11,882 nt of DNA, taken from positions 1 to 11,882 of the forward strand of contig OMIW01000015.1 of the NCBI GenBank assembly GCA_900299205.1, in the 5' to 3' direction. Below are positions 5,995-11,866 of the stretch, piece by piece (position 1 is the first letter of the stretch; every line of letters starts with the position of its first letter). The notes beneath the pieces are model-generated. The model saw only the letters and a program-made list of their open reading frames with translations. It was not told the origin of the DNA and made no database searches. Source of the DNA: Pseudomonadota bacterium (GTDB taxonomy: Bacteria > Bdellovibrionota_C > UBA2361 > OMIW01). The position numbers and the translations under genes were made by a program.

Positions 5995-6378
5995 ATGACC
6001 AAAACATCCGCCCTCAAGCTCGTTAACGGACTCCTTTATGTCGTCAGCACCTGCCTTTTCTGTTCAGGGCTTGTTCTTGAGTACCGGCTTGAGGGACGGG
6101 GACTGCGGGGAGCCCAGCTTTTAATGATGACGAAGCATACCTGGACGGAGGTGCACTTCATCTTGGGTTTATCGACAGCGACCCTTGTAGTGGCCCACCT
6201 CTGGCTCAATTGGGGATGGATCGTAAAAGTCGCAACGAGTGGGGCGCGGTCTCGGTTGATAGGAACCGTCGGATTTGCCGTTTTTGCCATCGGTATAGCG
6301 CTGCTCGCGCCCATTACCCTCCCCGATGACCAGCAACCGCAAGAGTCGGGACGCGGTCAGTGGCAGTGGTGGCGATAG
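5995..6378 (+). CDS. Small three-helix membrane protein, DUF4405-like
   Basis: The 127-residue integral membrane protein has three predicted transmembrane helices, at about residues 8-29, 54-75 and 88-107, and a charged C-terminal tail ending QWQWWR. The TKHTWTEVHFILG...HLWLNW pattern (47-73) matches what I know of the DUF4405 family: histidines, Trp, then H-x-x-L-N-W at the helix end. His54 and His68 are 14 apart in one helix, a spacing found in haem-ligating helices of b-type cytochromes, so haem binding is possible but inferred. ATG 5995 was chosen over TTG 5956 because 5956 lies upstream of or at the likely transcription start; no strong ribosome site is visible. The last 65 nt overlap the 3' end of the convergent KfrA-like gene. 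Function is unknown. Confidence 0.7.
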   Translation: MTKTSALKLVNGLLYVVSTCLFCSGLVLEYRLEGRGLRGAQLLMMTKHTWTEVHFILGLSTATLVVAHLWLNWGWIVKVATSGARSRLIGTVGFAVFAIGIALLAPITLPDDQQPQESGRGQWQWWR

Positions 6379-7219
6379 AGGCGGGGGCGAGCTGCGAACT
6401 GAGCATATGAGAGAGCTGCCCGAGCTGTGTGGTTAGTTCTGTATACCGGGTCCGTTCATGTGCGATGTGCTCCCGCAGAAGGGTAACCTCGCGTTGAAGC
6501 CCCTCGCGTTCTCCTTGGCTCGAGAGAGTGCTGCCCTGCAACTCCTCGATCCGTTCGCGAGCAATTGTGTTTTCCCCGCGCAGTGCAGCCTGCTCCTGCA
6601 GAAGCCTTTCGACGGTGGCCGAGTGATTAGCAACCGCTTCTCGGTTACTCTGTTCCTGTTCGGCGATCGTTCCTCGAAGGTTCGCGATGATCTGTGTGCG
6701 TTCGTCGAGCTCTCGTTTCGCTTCGCCTAAAAGACGCGCGGCGTGCTCATAATCGGTGACCGCCCGAGCCTTGGCTGCCTCAGCGCTTAATCGCCGGGTC
6801 TCGACCATCACCACCTCTTCTCGAGCTCGAGCTAGCTCAGCGCGCACCTCTTCCAGCTTTCCCTGAAGGGTGTCGACCATCTGTGATGCGGCCTCAAGAT
6901 CCTGAAGGGTGCCTGCGTGATGTGATTCAAGCTCTTCCCGCAAAGCCGCCGTTTTGCGCGCCATCGATGATTGAGCTACTCGCCATACCTCTCGCGCGAA
7001 TCCTCGCGAAGCGGTGACGAGAAGCTCAGGAAGTTCACTCTCATTAGCTCCCGAACCGCCACTCTCATCCCGTGCTTCCCGCCACAGTCGGAGATATTTC
7101 TGAATTGTCGAGAATGAACCGCTCCCAAGGTGCATACGCACCTGCAAATAGGTCGGTTCAGAGCCATTTTGCGCAAGTGAATCAGCCGCTTCAAATACTT
7201 GTTCTTTGGTAATTGCCAT
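6314..7219 (-). CDS. KfrA-type DNA-binding coiled-coil protein
   Basis: The 301-residue protein opens with a KfrA N-terminal-type helix-turn-helix region (about residues 1-50), recognisable from ITKEQVFEAADSLAQNG, PTYLQVRMHLG and GSFSTIQKYLRLW. A low-complexity linker (51-65) follows, then a long Glu/Arg/Ala/Leu-rich coiled coil from about 85 to 275, and a short tail. KfrA was described on IncP and related plasmids as an autorepressing DNA-binding protein with an extended alpha-helical tail; chromosomal relatives exist with unknown roles. The ATG at 7219 is preceded by CGGGG 5 nt away. A 7-bp-arm inverted repeat at 7245-7266, between the start and the likely promoter, is a natural candidate for an autoregulatory operator. 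It is divergent from the PAS-protein gene and overlaps the membrane-protein gene at its 3' end. Family assignment is fairly sure; role is not. Confidence 0.82.
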   Translation of the reverse strand: MAITKEQVFEAADSLAQNGSEPTYLQVRMHLGSGSFSTIQKYLRLWREARDESGGSGANESELPELLVTASRGFAREVWRVAQSSMARKTAALREELESHHAGTLQDLEAASQMVDTLQGKLEEVRAELARAREEVVMVETRRLSAEAAKARAVTDYEHAARLLGEAKRELDERTQIIANLRGTIAEQEQSNREAVANHSATVERLLQEQAALRGENTIARERIEELQGSTLSSQGEREGLQREVTLLREHIAHERTRYTELTTQLGQLSHMLSSQLAPASIATTATDRVPTLAVAGHRGG

Positions 7220-7266: not shown

Positions 7267-7456
7267 TAGCGGTAACCTTACCCCGATTATCTTTAATCGA
7301 AAAGGGAGCAGAGGCTGACTATGAGAGGCGTTTGCGCGAAGTTCTGCTCAGAGAGGATCCCCGGCGACTTCGCACGCATCGTAACTCCAGGGTTCTTCCG
7401 TGGGCTGTGGTGGCATCCATTGCCCCATCTGTTTACCAGGTCCGAGAATATAGACC

Positions 7457-8473
7457 ATGAGCGAAATTACTCTCCTTGCCGTGATATCAACCGCATCCCT
7501 TGCTACGCAGCTCCGAGCATACATGCAGGCGTATCAGCCCCGATTCCAGCTCCATGTGGTGCCTACCTCTGCAGAGGCTCTTGCGTTGATGCGTGAGCGT
7601 CAATTTGACACGGTGTGGTTTGAGTATCATGAACGCGCGACCGGTCTTGCTGAAGTAGCTATGATGTTTGCCCCGGGCGAATTGATTGCCCTCGTCAATG
7701 ATCATGAGGAGGCGGCGTCGAGCCTCGATCAGGGGGCTACCTCGATTGTTTTTCGGAGTGACGATCTCTCTGCATGGCCCACATCGGTTCGATTAACCGA
7801 GGTCGCCATTGGCCGCGAAGCACAGTTACGCGCGCTCCAGCTGACAGAGCAGCGATTCGAAGCGGCAATTCGAGGTGCTCACCTCGGGCTTTGGTATTGG
7901 TCTGTCGCTCATCGAACCCTCGCGATTGACGAGCGGTGGCGTCGGATTCTCGGGTATACCCGCGGTGAAGAGCTAAAAACGGGAGACGTGCCCTGGGTAG
8001 GTCTTACGACGGAGGAGCACGAGCACCGAACGCGCGAAGCGATTCAAAAATGTCTATCACGAACCTCCGATTTCTTTTCTCTCGATATCCCCCTGACCGG
8101 ACCAAACGGACTGGAGCGAACAGTCCTTGTCGTGGGAGGAGTTCCTCATCGTACGAAGCGGGGGGAGCCCATTCAGATGGCCGGGGTGCTTTTTGATCTC
8201 AATCAAAGGCAGGGTTCGTTGGGGAACGTCCATCCTCATCTCAGTGGAGCCAGTATCGCGGAGGGCATCGCTGCAAATAAGGTCCTCGACAACCTCGTGC
8301 GAGAAACGCGCACACAGCTGAGCACTATCATCGGTTACGGAGATATGATCATGCTCGATGAATCAATCCCCACAACCTGCAAAGAAGCAGCGGCTGCCAT
8401 TCTAACCTCGGCAAGGGCACTTCTTAAAACCACTCAGCAGGCGAACAGCCCTGCCTCCCGATTGCCGCTCTGA
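7457..8473 (+). CDS. Degenerate receiver-PAS-HisKA-like signalling protein
   Basis: The 338-residue protein has three parts. Residues 4-115 resemble a receiver fold (LLAVIST, FDTVWFEYH, QGATSIVFRSDD), but the phospho-acceptor Asp is replaced by Glu56, the acidic pair after strand 1 by Ile10-Ser11, and the conserved Lys by Arg100. Residues 131-250 form a PAS/PAC domain (RFEAAIRGAHLGLWYWS, ERWRRILGY, then a C-terminal VLFDLNQRQ). Residues 270-330 look like a HisKA dimerisation helix pair: NLVRETRTQLSTIIGY fits the classic N-[LM]-S-H-E-L-R-T-P-L pattern, with Arg282 at the histidine position and Gln287 at the proline. The protein stops with no ATPase domain. It therefore cannot phosphorelay in the usual way and may act as a PAS sensor or scaffold. 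The start is ATG 7457; an in-frame TAG at 7451 rules out extension. It is divergent from the KfrA-like gene. Confidence 0.75.
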   Translation: MSEITLLAVISTASLATQLRAYMQAYQPRFQLHVVPTSAEALALMRERQFDTVWFEYHERATGLAEVAMMFAPGELIALVNDHEEAASSLDQGATSIVFRSDDLSAWPTSVRLTEVAIGREAQLRALQLTEQRFEAAIRGAHLGLWYWSVAHRTLAIDERWRRILGYTRGEELKTGDVPWVGLTTEEHEHRTREAIQKCLSRTSDFFSLDIPLTGPNGLERTVLVVGGVPHRTKRGEPIQMAGVLFDLNQRQGSLGNVHPHLSGASIAEGIAANKVLDNLVRETRTQLSTIIGYGDMIMLDESIPTTCKEAAAAILTSARALLKTTQQANSPASRLPL

Positions 8474-8686
8474 TCTTCCTCTGGCGGTCAACCGAGCTAT
8501 ATCGCACATTTTCGCGATTATCGAGGATAACCTCTCCAGCGCGGTCGGGTGTTCTCGGATGCGGGGGAAGAGTTTGGTGATGTCGCCCCCTTTCGTACCC
8601 ATAACTGTCCGATAACCTAGCCTTTGACCCGTTTCGAATCGTTTTTGCTTGAGAACACTTCAAAACTCGAATGACGAGGCAGTATC
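8474..8686. other. Spacer between PAS-protein gene and cca
   Basis: No gene is supported here. It holds a small perfect hairpin, TTATC/GATAA, at 8518-8530, and a looser GGGGG/CCCCC pairing (8563-8567 with 8586-8590) followed by TTTCGT, which may be weak termination structure after the upstream gene. The cca ribosome site GAGG is at 8676-8679. Confidence 0.4.
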
Positions 8687-10213
8687 ATGAGAGATGGGTT
8701 TTCAGAGCGGTTACCTCCTGACCTCATCTTTGGGAAGGACTCCTCTCTCAGAGATACCGTGGTTGCGCTTGCAAAGGGGATATCGGCGCTCCCTCGGCTT
8801 TCATCCGATGCTCCCGTTCCTCACCTTCTCCTCTACGGAGGGGGAGTCCGTGATATTCTTCTCGGCGAGCGGCTGCGTGATGCGGACATTCAGGTGTATG
8901 GAGTCCCCCCCGATCGGCTTGAAGCCCTTCTTCACCATTTATTCCCAGGGGCGGTTGAGCGGGCGGGCAAAGAGTATGAGATTTTGAAAGTTTCGATGCC
9001 GCGCCGGGGATCGCGCCGAGTTCATGATGTCATCGATATCTCCATTCCGCGGGCTAAGACGGGAGGGGTCAGCCGATTTGAGGAGGGCGATCCATGCCTC
9101 TTTCCCCTACAGGCGACCCGCTACCGAGATTTTACGATTAACAGCATGTCCCTCGATCCGGTGCTTGGCATAGTGTATGACCCGTATGAAGGACAAAAGG
9201 ATCTTCACGCGCGTCGGCTTCGGTTGGTCGATGAGCAGACTTTCTGGCTACGGGGAGTCCACGTATTACGAGGGTGTCAGTTCGTATCCCGTTTTGGGCT
9301 CACAATCGAGGATAATACCCGCAGGGTGATGTCCGACATGAGCGCGGACCAAGTTGTTGATAGGATTCCCGCGAATGCGGTCCGCGAAGAGATACGGAAA
9401 CTTCTCTTGGTGGGGCGGAAGCCAAGCGCAGGGCTGATCTGGCTTCATCGGTTTGGCCTTCTTGAGCGGTACTTTCCGACAATGATTGCAAAACAGAGCC
9501 GAGCCGATTTCTCCGAGTGGCTCACCCGTTTTGATCGGTGTGTACGGACTGGGCGGACCTGCCGTATGTATCCCGATCACATTCTCATCGCGCAGCTGGC
9601 GCTATTATTCGCGCCGCTCTGTCGAATTAAGCGAGAAGAAGACCGGATAGATGCCATTCAGAAGAGCCTCTCGTCGATCTGCTTCTCCGGCTTCCAGCAC
9701 GCATCGGTCGCCGAAATAGTGACCCTCATGTTACATGATCTGACCCCCAACAACGATCAGGTTAATCGACGACTGGGGAGAGCGCTCCCTCACCGAGGAG
9801 TGCGACATCCACGAGGCAGTGAGATCACAACGGCCTCAGCTGAGGCCATCTTAGCCAACCGTATCAGCTCGACCATCTTCACTCCAAAACCAGCGATGGC
9901 GCTCGCGCTTGCGAGCTATTGGTCACGGTCATTCAGTGAGATGCTCCACCTGTGCGATCAAGCGAAACAATCGTCGGAGGATGAACCAACCAGTCGTGGT
10001 CACCACATTCTGAGTGCCGATGAGGTGGATACGGTGCTTGGTCAGGACGCCACTCTCGAACGCCGAACGGAGGCCATGGCAGAGTTGAGTGCACGTCGCT
10101 ACGAGTTAGTGACCCGAGCACGAGCACGGGACTACCTCAAAAAGGTGGTCAGTCAGGGGATGAATGTCAGGGAAAAGGTGCCCAGCAGTGACGAAATCGC
10201 GGAGGCATTCTGA
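8687..10213 (+). CDS. cca: CCA tRNA nucleotidyltransferase / poly(A) polymerase family
   Basis: This class II nucleotidyltransferase most likely adds or repairs the 3' CCA of tRNA. The head carries YGGGVRDILLG (50-60) followed by the metal-binding pair Asp65 and Asp67 in DADIQVYG, a probable third acidic residue around 114-117 (HDVIDIS), and RDFTINSM (147-154) with DPYEGQKDL (165-173). A neck/helical body follows (VREEIRKLLL about 235-245; LHRFGLLERYFP). At 508 residues it is longer than typical bacterial CCA enzymes near 400-450, and I see no HD phosphohydrolase motif in the C-terminal half. Relatives of this family also include poly(A) polymerases and single-nucleotide (A- or CC-adding) enzymes, which sequence reading cannot exclude. 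ATG 8687 has GAGG 7 nt upstream. It is transcribed toward the Imm-domain gene with a 43-nt gap. Confidence 0.85.
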   Translation: MRDGFSERLPPDLIFGKDSSLRDTVVALAKGISALPRLSSDAPVPHLLLYGGGVRDILLGERLRDADIQVYGVPPDRLEALLHHLFPGAVERAGKEYEILKVSMPRRGSRRVHDVIDISIPRAKTGGVSRFEEGDPCLFPLQATRYRDFTINSMSLDPVLGIVYDPYEGQKDLHARRLRLVDEQTFWLRGVHVLRGCQFVSRFGLTIEDNTRRVMSDMSADQVVDRIPANAVREEIRKLLLVGRKPSAGLIWLHRFGLLERYFPTMIAKQSRADFSEWLTRFDRCVRTGRTCRMYPDHILIAQLALLFAPLCRIKREEDRIDAIQKSLSSICFSGFQHASVAEIVTLMLHDLTPNNDQVNRRLGRALPHRGVRHPRGSEITTASAEAILANRISSTIFTPKPAMALALASYWSRSFSEMLHLCDQAKQSSEDEPTSRGHHILSADEVDTVLGQDATLERRTEAMAELSARRYELVTRARARDYLKKVVSQGMNVREKVPSSDEIAEAF

Positions 10214-10256: not shown

Positions 10257-11024
10257 TCAACATGACATCTTGTCGGAATCACTCCCTGAAGAGCCACCAA
10301 TCCGTTTCGCAATACGAGGAATCTGCTCGGAGCGTTCCTGCAAATCCGATGACTCGCGCAACGGACGACCTTTGTGCAGATTAATCGCAGAAAGGTCGGC
10401 GACGAACCGAGAAAAATCAAAGAGTAGCTTTCGAATCTCATCGTTTTGTCGAGCGAATCGCCGCACCGTATTCTGAAACGTCGGATCGGCATCGACCGCG
10501 CTCTGACTGAGGGCATTTCGGAGAAGCGCAGAGAGAGCGGCCAACGCCTGCGCCGAAGAGCGGAGGCGGTCATGGAGCCCAGAGAGAAGGAGACAGCGAT
10601 GTTCTTCAAAGCGAGTGTAGGCGACCTCAGAGGGGAGAAATTTCTGACCCAGCAGCCGTTTCCCATCACGGGCGGTGCGCTCAGCCGCATCGAGCATCCC
10701 CAGAAGCTCGCCCTTTTCCGCAATATACCGAGCCGCCACGGAAAGGGTACGGAGCTCTTCCTGCAATCTTCCGCCCTCAGGGGTGATATCCTCGACCTCA
10801 GAAGACATCGGTTCTCTTGCCAGCTCCCGAGACGAAGCCGGTGGCCGAGAGAGTGCGAGGATCAGACAAACCATATAGCCGATGCCCGTCCATCCGAGAG
10901 AGGCATTTAATGAGGCAATGCGTCGCAGGTTGGGGTTGCGGTTAATGGATGCGATTATCGTGGGGAGGAGATAGAGACCAAGGAGCCCAACAAGGCGGAG
11001 CATCGCGTACACCGAAAATATCAT
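10257..11024 (-). CDS. Imm-type superinfection-immunity domain protein with helical C-terminus
   Basis: The 255-residue protein begins with two transmembrane helices (about 5-27 and 43-60). The text around them, LYLLPTIIAS, NPNLRRIASLN and LGWTGIGYMVCLILALS (43-59), matches the superinfection immunity (Imm_superinfect) family named after phage T4 Imm, which blocks DNA entry by a second phage. Many chromosomal members are short membrane proteins of unknown role. Here the domain is followed by a predicted cytoplasmic, Arg/Glu/Leu-rich largely helical region of about 190 residues (ELRTLSVAARYIAEK; EEHRCLLLSGLHDRLR; ARQNDEIRKLLFDF), which I do not recognise. The start is ATG 11024; an internal ATG at 11003 would leave the membrane domain nearly intact, and neither has a clear ribosome site. 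A defence role is possible but not shown. It lies 258 nt downstream of the gene at 11283-11762. Confidence 0.7.
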   Translation of the reverse strand: MIFSVYAMLRLVGLLGLYLLPTIIASINRNPNLRRIASLNASLGWTGIGYMVCLILALSRPPASSRELAREPMSSEVEDITPEGGRLQEELRTLSVAARYIAEKGELLGMLDAAERTARDGKRLLGQKFLPSEVAYTRFEEHRCLLLSGLHDRLRSSAQALAALSALLRNALSQSAVDADPTFQNTVRRFARQNDEIRKLLFDFSRFVADLSAINLHKGRPLRESSDLQERSEQIPRIAKRIGGSSGSDSDKMSC

Positions 11025-11282: not shown

Positions 11283-11762
11283 TCACTCCGTCCAGTAACA
11301 GACCGCACTACGGTAGTCGTGATGTGGTACGTCCGGAACGTCATCGCCATCATACTCCTCGGCAAACAACTCGTTGTAGAGCGCCTGAACCTCGGGGATC
11401 TCGGGGATCAAAGTGTCCCTCTCCGAGAGAAGGATATAGTAACCTCCTCTCACCTCGATGTATTTGTGCAACTTTTCGCAACAGTTTGTCGGGGGGTACA
11501 GGGCGATAAAGCCCTCCCCCGACGGAATGAAGGTGACTTCTTCAGAACCCACAGCCTGGGGTGAGATCGAAGTTATCAGAATAGGGTGCCCATCCTCCAA
11601 GTGTGTCAGCTGGGTCTGACTCAGCGAGGCTACGAATGACCTCAAAATAGGGGTCTCTTCGAGATCCGAGGGGGCATACGCCTCCAGGGTAATCCTGCAC
11701 TCATCGCAGGAATCTTGAACAACCGAGAAGAAGGTTTCGGTTCGATTGACAAATTTCGTCAT
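11283..11762 (-). CDS. Acidic protein of unknown function
   Basis: I do not recognise this 159-residue protein. It is strongly acidic, especially at the C-terminus (EEYDGDDVPD at 135-144), has no transmembrane segment or signal peptide, and appears to be a single alpha/beta domain (TFIPSGEGFIALYP, RGGYYILLS). Cys19-x2-Cys22 and Cys94-Cys95-x3-His99 could together bind a metal such as zinc, but this is only a residue pattern. The open frame extends to a TTG at 11816. ATG 11762 is preferred because the extra codons would run through a long inverted repeat (11792-11866). Neither start has a clear ribosome site at normal spacing, although GGAGGAGG lies just after the TTG. Regulation through that hairpin leader is possible. 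Confidence 0.6.
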   Translation of the reverse strand: MTKFVNRTETFFSVVQDSCDECRITLEAYAPSDLEETPILRSFVASLSQTQLTHLEDGHPILITSISPQAVGSEEVTFIPSGEGFIALYPPTNCCEKLHKYIEVRGGYYILLSERDTLIPEIPEVQALYNELFAEEYDGDDVPDVPHHDYRSAVCYWTE

Positions 11763-11791
11763 GGTTAAATCCGACTTAAGTGAAAGAAAGG

Positions 11792-11866
11792 CAACGAAGA
11801 CTCGCGCCTCCTCCAAAACACAGCCACTCTCTCCCGCTGTATTATCGAGGAGACGCGCCTTCGTTG
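11792..11866. repeat. Long imperfect inverted repeat (75 bp)
   Basis: Left arm 11792-11813 and right arm 11847-11866 pair as CAACGAAG/CTTCGTTG (8 bp), a 3:1 internal loop, CGCG/CGCG (4 bp), one mismatch and CTCCTC/GAGGAG (6 bp). An inner ACAGC/GCTGT (11820-11824/11836-11840) continues in register around an 11-nt loop. It ends 29 nt upstream of ATG 11762, so in RNA it would be a long 5'-leader hairpin of the acidic-protein gene. A minus-strand GATAAT (11846-11841) lies inside it. Confidence 0.75.

Follow-up and report, generated by a model that had tools for sequence, protein, structure and literature searches.

How a two-component protein might still serve its cell once the residues that handle phosphate have been replaced is the question raised by a 338-codon open reading frame in the window analysed here, a stretch of 11,882 bases that is also the full length of its contig in a draft genome (206 contigs, ~90% complete). 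The frame is intact and uninterrupted, and an in-frame TAG at 7451-7453 places its start at or after 7457. It lies between a divergent upstream gene for a KfrA-type DNA-binding protein and a downstream gene, starting at 8687 and thus 213 bases after it, for a tRNA nucleotidyltransferase/poly(A) polymerase-type protein; the contig also encodes waaA/kdtA, lpxK, a fumarylacetoacetase, PhoH, and a small DUF4405 membrane protein. No two-component gene was found among these contig neighbours, so the contig indicates no partner. A scan for consensus promoters and terminators gave nothing that clearly exceeded shuffled sequence, and neither an RNA family nor a tRNA was found within the window. A first-pass annotation, made from the letters alone, had read the protein as a receiver-like domain, a PAS domain, and a HisKA-like helix; this three-part anatomy was recovered here (Table 1) by a receiver subfamily profile, by Pfam PAS_3 (E 3.3e-7), and by hhalign (93%), respectively.

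Table 1. Coordinates in the window of the gene, the predicted domains, and the replaced residues.
Feature	Position	Strand	Evidence
ORF, 338 aa: pseudo-receiver, signalling helix, PAS, pseudo-HisKA hairpin (predicted order)	7457..8473	+	ATG to TGA; normal codon usage
Predicted degenerate receiver domain of alternating strands and helices (five of each), residues 1-118	7457..7810	+	Subfamily HMM, AF2 model, structure matches
Ile10-Ser11 replacing acidic pair	7484..7489	+	Sequence and alignment; second Asp in 21/21 rows
Glu56 (GAG) replacing phospho-Asp	7622..7624	+	Sequence; Asp in 21/21 aligned receivers
Ala78-Leu79-Val80, without Ser/Thr at switch-Thr position	7688..7696	+	Alignment; Ala78 or Val80 per gap placement
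Arg100 (CGG) replacing conserved Lys	7754..7756	+	Sequence; Lys in 21/21 aligned receivers
Predicted long helix, residues 104-141, receiver-to-PAS connector	7766..7879	+	AF2 model; same linker type in REC-PAS kinases
PAS domain (PAS_3), residues 125-252	7829..8212	+	Pfam, PDB match
HisKA/DHp-like helical hairpin, residues 263-329, no ATPase domain following	8243..8443	+	hhalign, sub-threshold Pfam, AF2
Arg282 (CGA) replacing phospho-His	8300..8302	+	Sequence; His in 18/19 (95%) aligned rows
Gln287 replacing H-box Pro	8315..8317	+	Alignment; Pro as general there as His at 282

The Pfam receiver model (PF00072) did not match the 338-residue protein at E values up to 10, and an hhalign comparison of the N-terminal part with 22 of the genome's own receivers was not significant (9%). 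With the receiver of kinase L013 as a starting point, 26 receivers that lead through a long helix into PAS or HisKA were gathered; residues 1-125 scored 11.4 bits with the resulting profile, and 10,000 shuffles reached at most 8.7. L013, a receiver-PAS-HWE kinase from the same class, was itself the best colinear match, aligning through both receiver and PAS across residues 32-252 at ~21% identity; unlike the protein studied here, it has an intact receiver (LLDYRLG, K) and an HWE kinase domain in place of the hairpin. An AlphaFold (AF2) model made from a 35-row alignment (pLDDT 85.7) placed a (beta-alpha)5 fold, a long helix, a PAS fold, and a two-helix hairpin in colinear order, with the strands of the receiver part at 4-9, 30-35, 52-56, 75-80, and 96-99. 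In structure comparisons, residues 1-135 of this model matched NtrC1 (Z 17.2, rmsd 2.2 over 133) and dozens of further receivers at Z 14-16. The receiver fold that had been proposed from the letters was thus recovered by structure prediction, in a model whose alignment contained receiver as well as kinase rows and which is therefore not independent evidence. A single-sequence AF2 model of residues 1-130 (pLDDT 46) was too poor for use and starts strand-helix-strand-helix. N-terminal matches in the PDB to a mannosyltransferase, a designed TIM barrel, and an ABC transporter were partial, had E values above 0.01, and were set aside as chance. Despite the failure of Pfam, the N-terminal part is probably, though not certainly, a receiver homologue, the homology being statistical and the score modest.

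The middle of the protein was the one part that a Pfam search of the whole sequence detected. PAS_3 scored 30.9 bits there against a cut-off of 25.6 (residues 156-244), and residues 126-252 matched 3mr0, the PAS domain of a sensory-box kinase/regulator (E 4.6e-5). On these matches, the presence of a PAS domain is certain.

For the C-terminal part, hhalign against 13 HisKA sequences gave 93% (P 2.9e-7), or 85% when the query was the whole protein, and kinases from related genomes aligned without a break from PAS into HisKA, reaching residue 327; the hairpin helices of the AF2 model span residues 263-300 and 306-329. Pfam HisKA (PF00512) gave the isolated C-terminal piece 14.5 bits, under its cut-off of 26.9. 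The profile searches suggested by the first-pass annotation therefore divided by method: HisKA was recognized by hhalign and missed at the Pfam cut-off, and the receiver was recognized by the subfamily profile and missed by Pfam. This part of the protein shares homology and a predicted two-helix hairpin with HisKA domains but not their phospho-accepting His (Arg282), and the protein can be classed as a pseudo-histidine kinase in the sense of a histidine kinase relative lacking one or more histidine kinase functions. A reading as an AmiR-like pseudo-receiver with an ANTAR domain, prompted by the RNA-binding LOV receptor 6hmj among the fold matches, was rejected: at E values up to 10, Pfam lists HisKA but not ANTAR.

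The second HisKA helix brings the frame to its close, and HATPase_c was found neither in the 338-residue protein nor in the six-frame translation of 8401-8720, which bears out the earlier statement that an ATPase domain is missing. An intact kinase shortened by assembly or sequencing error might be imagined in a draft genome of this many contigs, in which another kinase (C49, described below) also lies in two frames. The lack of an HATPase signal in all six frames downstream, with the next gene so close, speaks against such an error, as does the fact that an indel cannot replace His and receiver residues, and we consider it extremely improbable.

The replacements reported by the first-pass annotation at the phospho-Asp (Glu56), acidic-pair (Ile10-Ser11), Lys (Arg100), and phospho-His (Arg282) positions all stand, both by direct reading and in the 35-row alignment, and two further losses came to light: the switch position holds neither Ser nor Thr, and Gln287 stands where the H-box has Pro. 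The alignment columns show a change at each of the five receiver positions: Ile10, Ser11, Glu56, the switch-Thr position, and Arg100. Judged by its sequence, the domain fits the description of a pseudo-receiver (PsR/ALR), with receiver homology and with phospho-Asp and other key residues replaced. Because these receiver residues are changed, residue 282 is Arg, and the ATPase domain is missing, no known path is left by which phosphate could enter or leave, and on the evidence of its sequence the protein cannot take up, generate, or pass on phosphate by the usual chemistry.

The first-pass annotation had also suggested that Glu56 mimics phospho-Asp and so locks the receiver in one state. Replacements of D to E and of K to R are common in pseudo-receivers, Glu being the commonest replacement at the phospho-Asp position and a mimic of phosphorylation in some regulators (PMC12632262), and a D55E HupR structure was among the fold matches. 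The same review suggests, however, that mimicry works through the conserved Thr and Lys, and notes that it has been disproved in some pseudo-receivers (PMC12632262); here the Thr and both acids are gone and the Lys has become Arg, which leaves the domain without the residues that would read the phosphate. The suggestion is thereby weakened, and we regard an active receiver locked by Glu56 as very unlikely.

Orthologues of the protein were found neither in 57 related genomes, nor in 45 genomes of the phylum (which are also those of the class), nor in viral contigs; the other matches from these searches were PAS-domain proteins, mostly kinases. A pattern scan of 84,980 species genomes, sensitive to close relatives only, returned 15 pattern matches, of which none was confirmed. 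Synteny did not lead to an equivalent site: searches with the downstream nucleotidyltransferase gave distant matches only, and a PhoH scan gave only distant relatives, mostly from spirochaetes. Intact receiver-PAS-HisKA kinases were identified outside the phylum (L092, L096, L101, and L104) and in the same class (L136), and similar intact kinases without a scored PAS domain occur in the same class (L138 and others). The first five are cytoplasmic kinases that share with our protein the domain order, the helical linker between receiver and PAS, and the passage from PAS into HisKA helices; in contrast to it, none of them has lost Asp, Lys, His, or the ATPase domain, whereas our protein stops after HisKA. 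The ATPase domain is present in kinases of this domain order wherever the frame could be read to its end, and among the HisKA frames retrieved, the others without a scored ATPase domain either ran into the edge of a contig or locus, were divided by a break in the frame, or belonged to the C99 protein described below. Identity to the same-architecture kinases is ~13-20% in the 35-row alignment. Relatives with Asp, His, and ATPase, which the first-pass annotation had named as a sign of lineage-specific decay if they were orthologues, were thus found as distant cousins but not as orthologues.

These cousins bear on whether the protein is a lineage-specific remnant, that is, a receiver-PAS-HisKA-ATPase kinase that has lost its ATPase end and is drifting without function. 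The cousins are intact, no orthologue that keeps the shortened form was found, all of the replaced residues would be expected to drift after loss of the ATPase domain, and a recent loss of that domain in an already divergent kinase is possible. The losses at the two ends may even be, in evolutionary terms, a single event, because nothing protects receiver chemistry once the ATPase domain and the His are lost. Against drift stands the frame itself, which is open over its 338 codons and has the codon usage of its neighbours in the receiver, PAS, and hairpin parts alike. Of the positions that are hydrophobic in the family, 34/40 in the receiver, 24/32 in PAS, and 11/14 in the hairpin have stayed so, so that the core is kept while pocket residues have changed; hydrophobic residues occupy 22%, 11%, and 17%, respectively, of the family-polar columns. 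In simulations of neutral substitution, the frame stayed open in 4.6% of runs at 0.1 changes/site and in 0.45% at 0.2 changes/site, yet the receiver part has diverged beyond recognition by Pfam. The earlier description of a frame maintained without visible decay is therefore upheld, and the open frame, codon usage, core positions, and neutral runs together favour use over decay; the remnant reading seems to us rather unlikely.

All in all, the protein is somewhat more probably than otherwise a non-enzymatic adaptor of two-component signalling, a pseudo-receiver/pseudo-histidine kinase that acts by binding. On this adaptor reading, its ancestor would have been a sensor kinase with the order receiver-PAS-HisKA-ATPase, and it would now be a pseudo-two-component protein of the cytoplasm. 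Two copies may pair through the DHp-like hairpin and the long helix between receiver and PAS, or one copy may pair in this way with a complete kinase that the cell also makes, and the PAS domain might sense a small molecule or redox state and alter the dimer. A HisKA domain or some other partner could dock on the receiver-like domain, and docking would tune the kinase/phosphatase balance of the putative kinase partner. The genome supplies candidates for such a partner, with 12 HisKA and 16 HATPase matches that include complete kinases. More tentatively still, and with considerable doubt on our part, the protein could be a natural dummy subunit in which the binding surfaces of both phosphorelay ends surround a PAS sensor and the chemistry has been removed, so as to enter kinase dimers or mask kinase surfaces in response to a signal.

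A different use would be that of a stand-alone ligand sensor or scaffold, with pseudo-receiver and PAS binding ligands or a non-kinase partner and the hairpin making a homodimer only. Many pseudo-receivers do work via ligands or non-kinase partners (PMC12632262), AmiR, CikA, and FrzS offer models, and the contig has no adjacent kinase gene. The 338-residue protein lacks any recognizable DNA-binding, RNA-binding, or enzymatic output domain, however, and the fact that it has kept a DHp-like hairpin suggests that its partners have one too; we consider a stand-alone role unlikely.

The adaptor reading has parallels in known systems. Like the pseudo-histidine kinases DivL (Caulobacter) and RetS (Pseudomonas), which regulate another kinase by contact, our protein is histidine kinase-like. 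DivL lacks the phospho-His, and both DivL and RetS keep an ATPase-like domain; our protein differs from them in having no such domain and in adding a dead receiver. DivL acts on CckA (PMC4211667, PMC5361649), which is also directly inhibited by a receiver-like protein (PMC9430884), and RetS works in the GacS network (PMC11330419). In ShkA, the pseudo-receiver binds the HisKA domain of the same protein and prevents autophosphorylation for as long as c-di-GMP is not bound (PMC7010744, PMC12632262), and the switching of bacterial pseudo-receivers has been described as unknown (PMC12632262). With bacterial pseudo-receivers our protein shares a predicted receiver fold without catalytic residues, but those whose sequences were analysed in PMC12632262 still score as PF00072 and ours does not. 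The phospho-Asp is absent from ~2% of receivers and the phospho-His from 0.9% of HisKA domains (PMC12632262). Pseudo-receivers and pseudo-histidine kinases are thus each already known, and it is the presence of both dead ends in one protein that is unusual; a limited search of open-access text found no description of both in one protein without an ATPase domain. In a protein of this kind, what the domains do by binding is set apart from what they do by chemistry.

Other degenerate signalling proteins were observed in the same genome. At least one other kinase, the 463-aa C132 (L029:1015-2403, -), begins with a receiver-like domain in which Glu takes the place of the phospho-Asp and Arg that of the Lys. 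It resembles our protein in placing this Glu/Arg domain ahead of HisKA but differs in that its HisKA and HATPase domains are intact, and the two receiver-like domains have no sequence match to each other. The 523-aa C99 protein (L032:508-2076, -) carries a HisKA H-box, VVHDLNN, and an intact C-terminal receiver, with no recognizable HATPase domain between the two. On the strength of C132 and C99, pseudo-signalling proteins therefore recur in this genome.

Several minor observations were made along the way. C184 (L049:1879-2379, -) is a lone degenerate receiver-like protein of 167 aa that adjoins a normal single receiver. A break midway through the HATPase domain, from a frameshift or an assembly error, divides the hybrid kinase C49 into two overlapping frames (L028:526-2031 and 1923-2681, +). 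In the related genome G035, a HisKA-HATPase kinase, C64 (L182:1281-2245, +), is interrupted by two stop codons. Elsewhere in the window, a 177-aa frame at 11283-11816 (-) had zero Pfam matches, and a 255-aa protein at 10257-11024 (-) combines an N-terminal membrane segment of the superinfection-immunity type (Imm_superinfect, E 3.8e-14) with a long helical C-terminal part. The KfrA-type protein at 6314-7219 (-), a type associated with plasmid replication regions, has a long coiled coil and lies on a contig that also carries LPS genes.
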